Source: Roseivivax isoporae LMG 25204 (GTDB taxonomy: Bacteria; Pseudomonadota; Alphaproteobacteria; Rhodobacterales; Rhodobacteraceae). From it: 64,000 nucleotides of DNA. Shown here in pieces: positions 2,487 through 8,843 of this stretch. A program made the position numbers and the translations under genes. The notes below the pieces were generated by a model, which had not been told where the DNA came from, did not search any database, and saw nothing but the letters and a program-made list of their open reading frames with translations. The first letter of the stretch is position 1, and each line of letters starts with the position of its first letter. The stretch covers positions 124,001 through 188,000 of the forward strand of contig NZ_JAME01000002.1 of the NCBI RefSeq assembly GCF_000521865.1, written 5' to 3'.

Positions 2487-2831
2487 CTAGCCGTGACGCC
2501 GCGGCGGGCGCAGGCCGATCCGGTCCATGAAGGCCGCGAGATCCGGCGGAGGCAGGCCCGCGCTCTTCGGGCGACGCCTGAGAAGCGCGTCGTAAGCCTT
2601 TCGCATTTCGTCCTTTTCCGCACCCTTCAGGTCGTTCCACGGACGTCCCTGCAGGGCCATGTGCAGCGCGTAGTAGGCGATGAAATGCGGCCGGGCGCCG
2701 ACCGAAAGCATGCGCAGATAGGCCTCGTCGGCGCCGATCCGACGCAGCGTCTCGGCGCTGTCGATGCCGGCTGCGGCGAGGAGGCGTTCCTGCGCGGGTC
2801 CGATGCCGCGGATCGCGGTGACCGGCGTCAC
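2487..2831 (-). CDS. TfoX C-terminal-domain protein
   Basis: A 114-residue protein consisting essentially of the TfoX/Sxy C-terminal domain: an N-terminal helix-hairpin-helix-like stretch AIRGIGPAQERLLAAAGI, then DSAETLRRIGADEAYLRML and the YYALHMALQGRPWNDL segment. The N-terminal TfoX domain of competence regulators is absent, so a role in competence should not be assumed. The start is a GTG at 2831 that overlaps the stop of the upstream aminotransferase gene (GTGA), implying translational coupling. Function beyond the domain name is unknown. Confidence 0.82.
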   Translation of the reverse strand: MTPVTAIRGIGPAQERLLAAAGIDSAETLRRIGADEAYLRMLSVGARPHFIAYYALHMALQGRPWNDLKGAEKDEMRKAYDALLRRRPKSAGLPPPDLAAFMDRIGLRPPRRHG

Positions 2832-4027
2832 GATCGCGCCGCGTGCCGCGGTGCCCGGGCAAGGCTGTCCGCGAAGGCCGCGAGCGTCTCGACCGCGGCG
2901 ACAAGCCTCTCGTCCGGCACGGTGAGCGCCACGCGCACATGTCCTGCCGCCGAGGGGCCGAAGCTCTCGCCGGGCATGACCGCGATCCGGTGCGCGTCGA
3001 GCAGCGCCCCGGCGAAGGCCGCGCCGTCGAGGCCCGTCGCGCGCACGTCGAGCATCACGTACATGGCGCCCTGCGGCGGGACGGCGCGGACCGCCGCGTG
3101 GCCTTCGAGCGCCTCGAGCACCCGCGCGCGGCGACGGCCGAAGGGTTCGGCCACGCGGCCCTCGCGCGCCACGCCCTCCGCCAGCGCGAAGCAGGCGGCA
3201 TCCTGGATGAAGCCCGGCACGCCGTAGGTGGTGACGGTGGCTAGGTCGATCAGGTGTCCGATGACCGCCTCCGGCGCGACGATCCAGCCGATCCGGCTGC
3301 CGGTCATGGCGTGGCTCTTCGACATCGACCCGACGACGAGCGTTCGCGCGGCCATGCCGGGCAGGGCGCGGGGCGACAGGTGCGCACCCTCCCAGACCTG
3401 GCTGTCGTAGACCTCGTCCGAGATCAGCCAGAGGTCGTGCGCCTCGGCGACCTCGGCGACCGCCTCGAGCGTCTGGCGCCCGTAGACCGCGCCGGTCGGG
3501 TTGTTGGGCGTGTTCAGGAGCAGCGACGCGGCGCCGGGCGCGGCCCGCATCAGCGCCGCGCGGTCGGGCAGGAACCCGTCCTCGGGCCGCGTCGGGACCG
3601 GGCGCGGCACGGCACCCGCGCCGCGGATCGTCCCCGGATAGGTGGCGTAATGTGGCTCGACCAGGAGCGCGGGCGCGCCCGGCGGGCAGCAGGCCACGTG
3701 CGCGGCAAAGAGCGCCGACTGTCCGCCCGGCGTCACCAGCACGTTGGCACGCGTGGTCGGCACGCCCGTCCGCTCGGCGACCCGTGCCGCGATGGCGTCG
3801 CGCAGCGTGTCGGTGCCGGGCACGGTGGCATACCCGGTGTGCCCGTCCCGCGCCGCCGCGTGCATCGCGTCGAGGATCGCGGGGTCGGTGCGCTCGTCGT
3901 GTTCGCCGATGGTCAGCTCGGTGACCTCGACGCCCCGGGCGACGAGGGCGCGTGCACGGTAGAACACCTCCCAGCCGTCCGATCCGCCGCCGTTGAGGCC
4001 GGTCAGGCGCGGGGAAAGTTCGGGCAT
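2828..4027 (-). CDS. Pyridoxal-phosphate aminotransferase, class I/II
   Basis: A 399-residue fold-type I PLP enzyme of the cytoplasm. Visible landmarks: the glycine-rich phosphate-binding segment TPGGQSALF (residues 99-107), NTPNNPTGAVY (172-182), the Asp/Tyr pair in LISDEVYD (201-208) that contacts the cofactor, and the Schiff-base lysine in SMSKSHAMTGSRIGW, with Lys237. The subgroup is aspartate-aminotransferase-like; the amino-acid substrate cannot be decided. The ATG at 4027 gives a normal family length. It is translationally coupled by a GTGA overlap to the TfoX_C gene. No pathway neighbours identify the substrate. Confidence 0.9.
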   Translation of the reverse strand: MPELSPRLTGLNGGGSDGWEVFYRARALVARGVEVTELTIGEHDERTDPAILDAMHAAARDGHTGYATVPGTDTLRDAIAARVAERTGVPTTRANVLVTPGGQSALFAAHVACCPPGAPALLVEPHYATYPGTIRGAGAVPRPVPTRPEDGFLPDRAALMRAAPGAASLLLNTPNNPTGAVYGRQTLEAVAEVAEAHDLWLISDEVYDSQVWEGAHLSPRALPGMAARTLVVGSMSKSHAMTGSRIGWIVAPEAVIGHLIDLATVTTYGVPGFIQDAACFALAEGVAREGRVAEPFGRRRARVLEALEGHAAVRAVPPQGAMYVMLDVRATGLDGAAFAGALLDAHRIAVMPGESFGPSAAGHVRVALTVPDERLVAAVETLAAFADSLARAPRHAARS

Positions 4028-4128
4028 GGCTGCGACTCCGTCTTGGTTTCGGCGCCACTCAACAGCGCCGGCGGTCCGGGCTCAACCCCAAGCTGGCGCG
4101 GACACCGGGGATGTGCTATCGGCGGCGC

Positions 4129-4173
4129 ATGAGCAACGCTGCACACCGCATCACCTGCTGCAATACCCGCTGA
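4129..4173 (+). CDS. Candidate cysteine leader peptide upstream of cysS
   Basis: A 14-codon ORF, MSNAAHRITCCNTR, ends 86 bases before the cysS start. Two adjacent TGC codons (4156-4161) sit four codons before its stop, as expected of a peptide that senses charged tRNA-Cys. Upstream, GCTATC at 4115-4120 could be a -10 element about 8 bases before the ATG, so the mRNA could begin at or very near the start codon. No clear ribosome site precedes the ATG, which fits a leaderless start. Cys codons are rare in this genome, so a tandem pair directly before cysteinyl-tRNA synthetase is unlikely to be chance. Translation and regulation are inferred, not shown. Confidence 0.62.
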   Translation: MSNAAHRITCCNTR

Positions 4174-4232
4174 GATTTCCGGCGGGCCGCTCTCCTGTTT
4201 CCCTCATGACATCGAGTTGCTAAAGCCCGCCG
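4166..4232 (+). promoter_or_regulatory. Mutually exclusive RNA pairings in the cysS leader
   Basis: CGGCGGGC at 4180-4187 is perfectly complementary to GCCCGCCG at 4225-4232. The same upstream strand (GCGGG, 4182-4186) can instead pair with CCCGC at 4166-4170, inside the last codons of the leader ORF. A ribosome stalled on the Cys codons would cover the latter and free the former, so the two structures can switch. No T-tract follows 4232, so if this is a switch it more likely acts on translation or on Rho than as an intrinsic terminator. The pairings are read directly; the switch is inference. Confidence 0.45.
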
Positions 4233-4259
4233 CGAGCGACCCCGCGCGCGAGGACCGAC

Positions 4260-5633
4260 ATGGCACCGACGATCAGGCTGACGAACACCCGGACCCGGAC
4301 GAAGGAGGACTTCGCCCCGATCGACCCCGGCAACGTGCGCATGTATGTCTGCGGGCCCACCGTCTACGACCGGGCGCATCTCGGCAATGCGCGGCCCGTC
4401 GTGGTGTTCGACGTGCTCTACCGCCTGCTACGGCACGTCTACGGCACCGACCACGTGACCTACGTGCGCAATTTCACCGACGTCGACGACAAGATCAACG
4501 CGCGCGCCGCTGAGACCGGCCGCGACATCGCCGCGATCACCGAGGAGACCATCGGCTGGTTCCATGAGGACATGGACGCGCTCGGCGCGCTGCGTCCCGA
4601 CCATGCCCCGCGGGCCACGGGATGGATCGCGCAGATGGTCGAGATGATCGCGGACCTGATCGCGCGGGGCCACGCCTACGCGGCCGAGGGGCACGTGCTC
4701 TTCGACGTCAACTCCTATGACGGCTACGGCCGGCTTTCGGGCCGGTCGGTCGAGGACATGATCGCCGGCGCCCGCGTCGAGGTCGCGCCCTACAAGAAGC
4801 ACCCGATGGATTTTGTCCTGTGGAAGCCGTCCGGCCCCGACCTGCCCGGCTGGGACAGCCCGTGGGGCCGCGGCCGGCCCGGCTGGCACATCGAATGCTC
4901 GGCCATGGCCGGCGGCCTCCTGGGCGAGAGCTTCGACATCCACGGTGGCGGCAACGACCTGATGTTTCCCCACCACGAGAACGAGATCGCGCAATCGGCC
5001 TGCGCGCATCCCGAGGGCGATTTCGCCCGCGTCTGGCTGCACAACGAGATGCTGCAGGTCGAGGGCAAGAAGATGTCGAAATCGCTCGGCAACTTCTTCA
5101 CCGTGCGCGACCTGCTCGACGACGGCATCCCGGGCGAGGTGATCCGCTTCGTCCTGTTGTCCGCGCATTACCGCAAGCCCATGGACTGGACCGCGCAGAA
5201 GCGGCAGGAGGCCGAGGCGACCTTGCGGCGCTGGTACGGCCTGGCGGGTGCGGCACCCGATGGCGGTGACGTTTCCGAGGGTGTCGTCAACGCCTTGGCG
5301 GACGACCTGAACACGCCCGCGGCGATTGCCGAACTGCATCGGCTCGCCCATGCCGAAGATGCGCCGACCCTGCGCGCGACGCTGAATTTCCTCGGCTTCA
5401 TGTGCCCGGACCTTCCCGCATGGGCGGTGGAGCCCGCGGCCGATCTCGGGCACTGGCGCGACCGGCTCGCGGCCGAACGCGCGGCCGCGATGCAATCCAA
5501 GGACTTCGCGGGCGTCGACCGGCTGAAGGCGATCCTCAAGGAGGCGGGCGTCGAGGTGCGCATGTCGAAGGAAGGCGTGGACCTGCTGCCCGGGCCCGGC
5601 TTCGACGCGTCGAAGCTCGAGGATCGGGAATGA
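4260..5633 (+). CDS. cysS: Cysteinyl-tRNA synthetase
   Basis: A 457-residue class I aminoacyl-tRNA synthetase that charges tRNA-Cys. Motifs: the zinc-site Cys31 in [11 protein letters not shown], the HIGH-type motif AHLGN (39-43), the second zinc-ligand region [27 protein letters not shown], and KMSKS at 271-275 in [11 protein letters not shown]. Length matches the family (about 460). The ATG at 4260 is preceded by GAGGA. The gene stands alone downstream of a Cys-codon leader ORF, suggesting control by cysteine or charged tRNA-Cys. cimA follows after 51 bases and may be co-transcribed. Confidence 0.97.
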
Positions 5634-5684: not shown

Positions 5685-7316
5685 ATGAAGGCGAAGGTGC
5701 CCATGGCTGAACGGCTCTACCTCTACGACACCACGCTGCGCGACGGGCAGCAGACGCAGGGCGTGCAGTTCTCGACCGCGGAGAAGCGGCGCGTCGCGGC
5801 GGCGCTCGATGCGCTGGGGGTCGACTACATCGAGGGCGGCTGGCCCGGCGCGAACCCCACCGACAGCGCCTTTTTCGAGGACGCGCCGGAGACCCGCGCC
5901 ACCATGACCGCCTTCGGCATGACCAAGCGGTCGGGCCGGTCGGCCGAGAACGACGACGTGCTCGCGGGCGTGCTGAACGCGGGCACGGGCGCGGTCTGCC
6001 TGGTCGGCAAGACGCACGACTACCACGTGGAGCGCGCGCTCGGCATCCCGCTCAAGGAAAACGTCGACAACATCGCGGCCTCGCTCGCGCATTGCGTTAA
6101 GGAAGGCCGGGAAACCCTTTTCGATGCGGAACATTTCTTCGACGGCTACAAGGCGAACCCGGGCTATGCCCTGACCTGCCTCCGGGCGGCGCGGGATGCG
6201 GGCGCGCGCTGGATCGTGCTCTGCGACACCAATGGCGGCACGTTGCCCGACGAGATCGGCCGCATCGTGGCCGAGGTGATCGCGGCGGGGATCCCGTGCG
6301 ACAGGCTCGGCATCCACACCCACAACGACACCGAGACCGCGGTCGCGGGCGCCCTTGCCGCCGTGGCCGCCGGCGCGCGGCAGATCCAGGGCACGCTGAA
6401 CGGGCTCGGCGAGCGCTGCGGAAACGCGAACCTCGTCTCGCTGATCCCGACGCTGGTGCTGAAGGAGCCGTGGGCGAGCCGCTACGACACCGGCGTCAGC
6501 CGCGCCGCTCTCGAGGACCTGACGCGCACCAGCCGGATGCTGGACGACATCCTGAACCGCGTGCCGCTGAAGCAGCTGCCCTATGTCGGCGCCTCGGCCT
6601 TCGCGCACAAGGCGGGGCTGCACGCGAGCGCGATCGAGAAGGACCCCTCGACCTACGAGCACGTGGACCCTTCCGCGGTCGGCAACCGCCGCTTCATCCC
6701 GATGTCGAACCAGGCCGGCCGGTCGAACCTGCGCCGGCGCCTGACCGACATGGGCCTCAGCGTCGCGCCGGACGATCCGGCGCTCGGACGCATCCTCGAC
6801 CGGGTGAAGGCGCGCGAGGCCGAGGGCTATGCCTACGACACCGCGCAGGCGTCGTTCGAGCTGCTCGCCCGCGAGGAGCTGGGGCAGGCCGCGGATTTCT
6901 TCGAGGTCAAGCGCTACCGGGTGACCGTCGAGCGGCGCAAGAACAAGTACAACCGGACGGTGTCGCTGTCCGAGGCGGTCGTGGTGGTGAAGATCGACGG
7001 CGAGAAGAAGCTGTCGGTGAGCGAATCGATGGACGAGTCGGGCGGTGACCGCGGCCCGGTCAACGCGCTCGCCAAGGCGCTGGCCAAGGATCTGGGGCGC
7101 TACCAGGACGTGATCGCCGACATGCGGCTCGTCGACTTCAAGGTGCGCATCACCCAGGGCGGGACCGAGGCGGTGACCCGCGTGATCATCGACAGCGCCG
7201 ACGGGCAGGGGCGGCACTGGTCGACGGTGGGGGTGTCGCCGAACATCGTCGACGCGTCCTTCGAGGCGCTGCTCGACGCGGTGCGCTGGAAGCTCGTCAG
7301 GGACGTGACCGGGTGA
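5685..7316 (+). CDS. cimA: (R)-citramalate synthase
   Basis: A 543-residue enzyme of the isopropylmalate/citramalate synthase family that condenses pyruvate with acetyl-CoA to citramalate, feeding a threonine-independent route to isoleucine. The HMGL-like catalytic domain (about 1-280) opens with LYLYDTTLRDGQQTQGVQFS and contains the metal-ligand region GIHTHNDTETAVAGALAA. The C-terminal third is the LeuA-type regulatory dimer domain. The CimA-specific opening (DTTLRDGQQTQGV, EGGWPGANPTD) separates it from LeuA. ATG at 5685 has GGAG just upstream; ATG at 5703 (MAERLYLYD) is equally plausible. The stop overlaps the GTG of the next gene. Its isoleucine role fits the ilv genes 9 kb away. Confidence 0.93.
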   Translation: MKAKVPMAERLYLYDTTLRDGQQTQGVQFSTAEKRRVAAALDALGVDYIEGGWPGANPTDSAFFEDAPETRATMTAFGMTKRSGRSAENDDVLAGVLNAGTGAVCLVGKTHDYHVERALGIPLKENVDNIAASLAHCVKEGRETLFDAEHFFDGYKANPGYALTCLRAARDAGARWIVLCDTNGGTLPDEIGRIVAEVIAAGIPCDRLGIHTHNDTETAVAGALAAVAAGARQIQGTLNGLGERCGNANLVSLIPTLVLKEPWASRYDTGVSRAALEDLTRTSRMLDDILNRVPLKQLPYVGASAFAHKAGLHASAIEKDPSTYEHVDPSAVGNRRFIPMSNQAGRSNLRRRLTDMGLSVAPDDPALGRILDRVKAREAEGYAYDTAQASFELLAREELGQAADFFEVKRYRVTVERRKNKYNRTVSLSEAVVVVKIDGEKKLSVSESMDESGGDRGPVNALAKALAKDLGRYQDVIADMRLVDFKVRITQGGTEAVTRVIIDSADGQGRHWSTVGVSPNIVDASFEALLDAVRWKLVRDVTG

Positions 7317-8063: not shown

Positions 8064-8843
8064 ATGCAGTTCGACGACGATCTCAACGCCTGCGCCGCGG
8101 CCGTGGAACGCGGCGATCCCGACCGGTTCCGCGCGGCCATGGCGGCGCCCGTGCCGGCGCGGCGCGTGCTCTTCCCGATCTACGCCTTCAACCTCGAAGT
8201 GGCGCGCGCGCCCTACGTGACGCAGGAGCCCATGATCGCGCAGATGCGCCTGCAATGGTGGGCCGACGCGCTCGACGAGATCGCGTCGGGGGGCATGGTG
8301 CGCCGGCACGAGGTGGCGACGCCGCTTGCGCTGGCGGTCGGTCCCGAGGGCGCGGAGCTGCTGCGACCCGCGGTCGAGGCGCGGCGACGCGACGCGGACG
8401 GCAGCGACCCGGCCGATGCGGAGGACCTCGAGGCCTACCTGTCCGATACCGGCGGTACGCTCATGTGGGCGGCGGCGCGGGCGCTCGGCTCGGCGCGCGA
8501 GGCGCGGGTGCGGGCCTTGGGCACGCATCTCGGCTTCGCGAACTACCTCCTGGCCGTGCCCGAGCTCCTGCGGCGCAACCGCCAGCCGTTTCCGGACATG
8601 TCGCCCGGGGCGATCGGGGCGGCGGTGCGGTCGCGGCTGCCGCTGCGCGCGGATCCCGACCTTGCAGAGAGGCCCGATGCCGGTGCGCGGGTGGCTGAGC
8701 TCTCCGCCTGGCGCGTGCCGGCGATCCTGGCGCGGGCCGCGCGCGATCCGCAGGCGGTCCTCGACGGACGGCTCGGCGGATCCGAGGCCGGGGCACGGCT
8801 GTCGCTGATGCTGACGGCGGCCGGGCTGCGCCGGCTGCCCTGA
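8064..8843 (+). CDS. NDUFAF6-like squalene/phytoene-synthase-fold protein
   Basis: A 259-residue protein with the trans-isoprenyl synthase fold but no catalytic aspartates. Where true squalene/phytoene synthases carry the first DxxxD motif, this protein reads YAFNLEVARAP (40-50), followed by MRLQWWADALDEI (61-73). That pattern matches the complex I assembly factor NDUFAF6, which is also catalytically dead. The YLSDTGGTLMW segment and the later GFANYLLAVPELL region fit the same fold. There are no carotenoid or hopanoid genes nearby. A role in respiratory complex I assembly is inference from family resemblance. The start is the ATG at 8064, ten bases after the previous stop. Confidence 0.72.
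   Translation: MQFDDDLNACAAAVERGDPDRFRAAMAAPVPARRVLFPIYAFNLEVARAPYVTQEPMIAQMRLQWWADALDEIASGGMVRRHEVATPLALAVGPEGAELLRPAVEARRRDADGSDPADAEDLEAYLSDTGGTLMWAAARALGSAREARVRALGTHLGFANYLLAVPELLRRNRQPFPDMSPGAIGAAVRSRLPLRADPDLAERPDAGARVAELSAWRVPAILARAARDPQAVLDGRLGGSEAGARLSLMLTAAGLRRLP

Follow-up and report, generated by a model that had tools for sequence, protein, structure and literature searches.

Does the short open reading frame ahead of cysS at this locus sense cysteine, and if so, cysteine only? In the window (the whole stretch of 64,000 nucleotides that was analysed), the plus strand carries a 14-codon ORF, MSNAAHRITCCNTR, which runs from the ATG at 4129 to the TGA at 4173 and has tandem Cys codons, TGC TGC, at leader positions 10–11 (4156..4161). 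The cysS gene for cysteine–tRNA ligase follows at 4260..5633 (plus strand; 457 amino acids; TIGR00435 at 418.8 bits, cut-off 340), its ATG (4260) lying 86 nt after the leader stop and behind a Shine–Dalgarno sequence, GAGGA, read from the sequence at 4250..4254. Coordinates and sequence bear out an earlier note on this DNA, which had described a 14-codon ORF with adjacent TGC codons at this distance from cysS. Because 5 of the 196 ATG ORFs of 10–20 codons in the window hold a Cys–Cys pair (CC), two of these being the leader frame itself, finding one with CC is by itself weak evidence; over its full length, the leader RNA was no more stable than its shuffles (z 0.41). Judged from sequence, the case for a leader is weak within the window alone and rests on conservation across relatives.

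The earlier note knew of no established cysS system of this type in the group, but one had already been published. The section on uORFC-8-2 (PMC8632094, RNA Biol 2021) describes 145 examples from Rhodobacterales, found solely ahead of cysS and characterized by two tandem Cys codons; ribosome stalling and an intrinsic terminator are proposed there, with no experiment in that section. An AUG uORF with tandem Cys codons directly before cysS in Rhodobacterales is also what the window contains, and this element is a member of uORFC-8-2, a published candidate attenuator. The published Cys pair is usually at positions 14–15, whereas here the first Cys is at 9 or 10 in 57 of 63 leaders, and the section takes a U-run as the mark of a terminator, whereas here the T-run coincides with the probable −35 element of a second promoter, P2. 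Isoleucine, cimA, a leaderless start and a second promoter do not appear in that section; the link to isoleucine and cimA, the leaderless geometry and the second promoter are new relative to it. No other report on the leader, or on its link to isoleucine or cimA, was found among the matches listed in the open-licence literature, and of the three Rfam matches at E 5 or better, none came close to its gathering score.

We compared 90 cysS upstream regions: that of the window, nine from eight genomes of its genus and 80 from named loci, almost all of them with Rhodobacteraceae in the title. In 81 of the 90 there was an ATG-initiated leader with Cys towards its end; most of these leaders were 13–15 codons long. 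Such an alignment had been suggested in the earlier note as a check on the Cys pair, and the pair was kept in 63 of the 81 leaders; 76 had at least two Cys and five a single Cys. The nine regions without a leader, as judged from ORF lists and promoter geometry, were L011, L038, L043, L046, L064, L070, L073, L092 and L050, the last of which is cut upstream and was set aside from leader and cimA counts. L079 and L104 look like one locus. At L092 the cysS gene is a second copy (55% identity) carried by a genome of the window's genus, and the genome of L046 has cimA, but not within 1500 nt after that cysS.

When 149 genomes of the window's order were searched with a covariance model built from 72 of the leaders, 131 matched, and all 131 best matches sat immediately upstream of cysS when positions were compared by eye. 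Among the 18 genomes without a match, 17 were retrieved, of which six had a short Cys leader all the same (L095, L101, L102, L104, L105 and L111) and eleven were judged to have none. At L097 (G030), an ORF of 12 codons that includes two Cys and one Ile was rejected by eye, as it lies inside the frame of the upstream gene without the promoter geometry; G021, also in the order sample, had no cysS match. When one genome was taken from each of 20 genera, picked from the model-positive ones, the leader was found in 20 of 20. Among 289 genomes across the class, 11 matched the model at E 0.01; the four strong matches were all in the same family, and the seven weak ones (24–29 bits) were discounted, since they and cysS lie on different contigs or hundreds of kilobases apart, so that with this model no spread beyond the family was found among the 289. 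The window's own genome has one strong match. Its runner-up (17.9 bits, E 0.56) is not taken for a second copy, as it lies wholly within an open frame of at least 160 codons, and the same holds for four weak second matches among the order genomes; a weak second match at L114 falls on a 24-codon ATG ORF with CCC, which we take for chance.

The leader RNA probably begins on the AUG itself. Upstream of it lie a −35-like CTGGCG (4093..4098, plus strand), where 73 of 81 loci have T at −35 once aligned at the leader ATG, and a −10-like GCTATC (4115..4120), which together form a candidate promoter, P1, with a predicted RNA 5′ end at A4129. In three sets of loci, a −10 TA was found 11–14 nt ahead of the leader ATG (79 of 81, 18 of 20 and 20 of 20), and in the same sets an SD-like motif ahead of this ATG was found in just 4 of 81, 1 of 20 and 1 of 20; C stands at −1 in 65 of 81 loci. 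The TA at −12/−11 places +1 on the A of the leader AUG, which is how we read the leader mRNA as probably leaderless. A strict consensus scan of the window returned no sigma-70 site at P1. The leaderless start, which the earlier note proposed along with the GCTATC at 4115, gains comparative support from the promoter geometry of the three sets.

Isoleucine content was counted in the 81 leaders, 20 validation genomes and fetched loci. In the 81 leaders Ile is the commonest residue, at 299 of the 1007 residues after Met (about 30%) versus 228 for Cys. Among CC leaders at named loci, Ile occupies the two codons before the pair in 43 of 55 and 47 of 55 and the codon after it in 49 of 55; farther from the pair it is rarer (24 of 55 and 21 of 54). 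Ahead of the pair both ATT and ATC are in use, and this mix suggests that these Ile codons are selected as an amino acid. The Ile codon right after the pair is ATT in 47 of 49, whereas the cysS genes there prefer ATC (906 versus 251).

The gene behind cysS offers a counterpart to these codons. In the window cimA, for citramalate synthase of isoleucine biosynthesis, lies at 5685..7316 (plus strand; TIGR00977 at 584.2 bits, cut-off 450), 51 nt behind cysS. Adjacency was scripted for named loci, whereas the 20 validation genomes and six that lack the leader were inspected by eye. Where the flank of a leader locus extends 600 nt or more, cimA is directly behind cysS in 65 of 68; at L058, L074, L080 and L083 the sequence ends too soon after cysS to show it. 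The three exceptions (MDWICCLCRA, MEWICCPC and MTETATLRCICRLR) have one Ile each, versus two to six in the other 65, and their genomes gave no cimA match at 1e-50. At two of them, L021 and L031, cysS is followed by a gene that by eye resembles window 8064–8843, which in the window lies past cimA and a methyltransferase-like gene; because this gene is now directly behind cysS, cimA and the methyltransferase-like gene seem to have been deleted from the locus.

We extended the comparison to genomes lacking cimA. The gene is absent in 5 of the 149 order genomes, none of which was judged to have a Cys leader, and in 17 of 395 genomes family-wide. The set of 16 cimA-less genomes includes G756 (whose cysS place is the same as that of L021), L031, L051 and the five order genomes; the L031 and L051 genomes are metagenome assemblies. 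Excluded from it were genomes with contigs ending near cysS or with no cysS match (G582 and G725), among them G541, G566 and G660, which have Ile-rich leaders on contigs ending near cysS, and G531, an 870-contig assembly with an Ile-rich leader (MGTAIRICGICITV) and no cimA match, whose contig ends about 640 nt after cysS. A Cys leader with at least two Ile was found at 65 of 71 named cimA-adjacent loci versus 0 of 16 cimA-less genomes (Fisher, 6e-13, uncorrected for kinship). Of these 16, four retain a single-Ile Cys leader (G534, G756, L031 and L051), eleven have no leader and one, G702, has a doubtful ORF that holds one Cys but lacks Ile. This ORF, at L159, is a possible decayed leader (MTKQPASAQSFCSRR) behind a promoter-like CTTGAC. 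By a rough count made without a tree, cimA was lost independently perhaps nine times.

Genus g7 includes two cimA-bearing genomes, both with a Cys leader, and four cimA-less ones, judged to have no leader. Two other genus-matched controls with cimA in the genome told us little: G494 has only MIWRC, as read from sequence, and G482 has no leader. Counting against the link, G531 pairs an Ile-rich leader with no cimA match, albeit in a fragmented assembly, and six order-sample genomes and six named loci have an adjacent cimA yet were judged to lack the leader. The window leader has one Ile despite its adjacent cimA, as does that of G014, whereas in the eight relatives from the window's genus that carry a leader the number is three to five; the window copy is an Ile-poor member of the leader group. 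The earlier note's reading of a cysteine leader is thus supported by comparison but incomplete, given relatives richer in Ile and cimA behind cysS.

The end of the leader can enter either of two pairings. Arm A, CCCGCTG (4166..4172), covers the last leader codons and the start of the stop codon and is complementary to CGGCGGG; arm B, CGGCGGGC (4180..4187), can pair with A or with arm C, GCCCGCCG (4225..4232). The earlier note had proposed the CGGCGGGC/GCCCGCCG pair and a rival pairing over the last leader codons. Both are present and complementary, and comparison lends support to their competition: as pairing potential, A:B and B:C are mutually exclusive through their common arm. The minimum-energy fold of the window takes A:B. 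As for the first stem of uORFC-8-2, described as including the Cys codons, a stem of this kind appears in the minimum-energy fold but is absent from the consensus fold. In an alignment of 72 of the 81 leaders (A1), which omits nine whose arms could not be placed, so that the invariance of B and C is partly selected, 90.5% of A:B cells were paired, with no excess of two-sided changes. The A:B energy had a median of −7.9 kcal/mol and beat 95% of shuffles at 34 of 78 loci.

For B:C, 93.8% of cells in A1 were paired and 10 had changed on both sides, a count reached in 0 of 500 shuffles. All of these changes fall at one pair, 73:127, which ranks first in a scan of all column pairs, although 19 of the 72 rows are unpaired there. 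A control with a +3-column slide had 63.1% of cells paired, yet 14 two-sided cells versus 10 and a covariation of 0.082 versus 0.064, and consensus folding returned five B:C pairs only, with no two-sided changes. We also predicted how masking A, as a stalled ribosome would, affects the cysS SD and AUG. Of 100 loci, 81 were scorable and 19 were not. Openness rose by more than 0.1 in 22 of the 81, fell in 2 and showed no such change in 57, whereas with a control mask it rose in 10 and fell in 6; in the window it went from 0.33 to 0.56 (control mask, 0.34). The predicted freeing of the SD upon stalling is a modest trend.

The T-run beyond arm B probably belongs to a promoter. Its TTTCCC (4198..4203, plus strand) is the probable −35 of P2, and GCTAAAGC (4219..4226, plus strand) the probable −10; an RNA from P2 would start at about 4233. 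Measured from the T-run to the GCTAAG next to arm C, the length is constant (17-nt spacer) in 70 of 72 rows, with a poorly conserved middle (mean identity 0.43) and neighbouring stretches that vary in length. Where no leader was judged to be present, a profile of both ends still picked out this arrangement in 11 of 19 cysS upstream regions, versus 2.9% of shuffled ones. These patterns in the DNA indicate that the T-run and GCTAAG are probably the −35/−10 pair of P2, and because C adjoins the probable −10, its conservation would not reflect RNA pairing alone. Nonetheless, a CCCGC-like arm follows P2 at 86 of 89 leader loci versus 4 of 11 without a leader (Fisher, 2e-6, uncorrected for kinship and with A1 rows partly selected for the arm), by which C seems tied to the leader.

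One clade separates the leader from the T-run. The 20 genomes of g37 (L101, L102, L104, L105 and L137–L152) have a leader mostly with a CIICI core and a strong A:B hairpin; the T-run is absent and P2 was found in 0 of 20. Over the 16 nt that follow B, the share of T is 46% at the 77 loci of the main group versus 12% in g37. Because g37 keeps the leader and A:B without the T-run, the terminator reading does not appear to be general, and the T-poor clade favours an effect of A:B other than intrinsic termination. An adjacent arm in g37, C′, was considered as covarying with B and rejected, being no better than shuffles in most of the 20 sequences. In the window, the tail after the A:B stem has 6 T in 18, and a terminator scan gave no terminator here.

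The leader is probably a ribosome-mediated attenuator of a cysS–cimA operon that senses both cysteine and isoleucine, as the operon would pair a Cys-tRNA synthetase gene with that of the first enzyme of citramalate-dependent isoleucine synthesis. As in an attenuator, the Cys codons match cysS and, in relatives, the Ile codons match cimA. From what sequence comparison provides (the leader, its Cys and Ile conservation, the promoter geometry, the potential for A:B and B:C and the link to cimA), we infer that cysS and cimA are transcribed together and that ribosomes translate the leader and stall on it, and likewise the direction of the switch. P1 would start the RNA at the leader AUG, on which a ribosome would load without a Shine–Dalgarno sequence to reach Cys codons, and in nearly all relatives also Ile codons, directly preceding the A:B hairpin. 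With charged tRNA-Cys and tRNA-Ile ample, the ribosome would depart and A:B would form, keeping expression low; were either scarce, it would stall at the Cys or Ile codons and cover A, so that B:C could pair and cysS–cimA be expressed. P2, near cysS, would supply basal expression that bypasses the leader. On balance we favour a leaderless peptide that gauges both amino acids and, where cimA was lost, shed its Ile codons while keeping Cys or disappeared altogether. The window leader may be chiefly a cysteine sensor, since its Cys pair is kept and it has one Ile only. Against a model based on stalling, a ribosome at the leader stop codon would likewise cover A.

We weighed this dual-input reading against others. 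The published one, a Cys-only attenuator with an intrinsic terminator, would make Ile incidental, a product of low structure or of a hydrophobic nascent chain. It has the uORFC-8-2 description (PMC8632094, in the section cited above) and the T-rich stretch of the main group behind it, and the preference for ATT over cysS usage is what a constraint at the base level would produce. We nevertheless consider it unlikely: all 20 g37 genomes retain the leader and A:B in a T-poor context, the stem and T-run are 4–5 nt apart, the T-run doubles as the probable −35 of P2, and the four Cys leaders of cimA-less genomes have one Ile while retaining Cys. A possible reading, less likely than dual sensing in general but compatible with it, is translational attenuation, in which C, left unpaired by A:B, would hinder the cysS ribosome-binding site until stalling lets B capture C and free the SD. 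The excess of loci opened by masking A points this way, and the T-poor clade is consistent with it, but the 57 scored loci without such a change, the 19 that could not be scored and the chance-level B:C′ pairing in most g37 sequences weigh against it.

The downstream arm and T-run might instead be P2 and nothing else, the B:C pairing being accidental. The constant 17-nt spacer and the persistence of P2 in 11 of 19 regions without a leader speak for this, yet the CCCGC-like arm goes with the leader, pair 73:127 changes on both sides and several leader loci that lack P2 keep a CCCGC-like arm, although this may be chance in GC-rich DNA; we hold the reading to be rather improbable, a little more so than the Cys-only terminator. 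Finally, by analogy with what is reported for peTrpL of Sinorhizobium, the peptide could act in trans. It is short, conserved and probably leaderless like trpL, but nothing points to a target and conservation centres on the Cys and Ile codons and the RNA arms, which makes such a role very improbable.

Leaders that read several amino acids have precedents: in Escherichia coli, thrL (Thr and Ile) and ilvL each read those matching the products of their operon. Those operons make the amino acids that are sensed, whereas at this locus the product of cysS charges Cys and that of cimA begins Ile synthesis. We know of no isoleucine component in the polycysteine ORFs of mycobacteria. As summarized in PMC9094748 (citing Canestrari 2020), those leaderless short ORFs with Cys codons are described as cysteine-responsive attenuators, but in another phylum and with other genes. 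Closer in geometry is trpL/rnTrpL of Sinorhizobium meliloti, which PMC7298713 presents as an alphaproteobacterial leader, also of 14 residues, whose RNA starts at the leader ATG and likewise adopts two exclusive structures; it differs in having Trp codons and a trpE operon, and in that paper terminator attenuation counts as established.

Control of cimA would matter to these bacteria, because in Roseobacter denitrificans grown on pyruvate about 80% of isoleucine flux was reported to run via citramalate, the cimA gene then being unannotated (PMC2749216). If the dual-input reading holds, a published cysteine-only candidate becomes a switch with two inputs, and its terminator reading is called into question. 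Leader codon content would then have tracked gene content in evolution, a natural experiment on the rewiring of attenuators, and the use of cysteine in protein synthesis would be tied to isoleucine supply in a widespread group.

Elsewhere in the window, the plus-strand ORF at 1323–1745 resembles what we take to be a nucleoside diphosphate kinase. The gene divergent from cysS, at 2828–4027 on the minus strand, is like those for PLP-dependent aminotransferases, with matches below curated cut-offs. The 232-nt gap between it and cysS contains the leader and both probable promoters.
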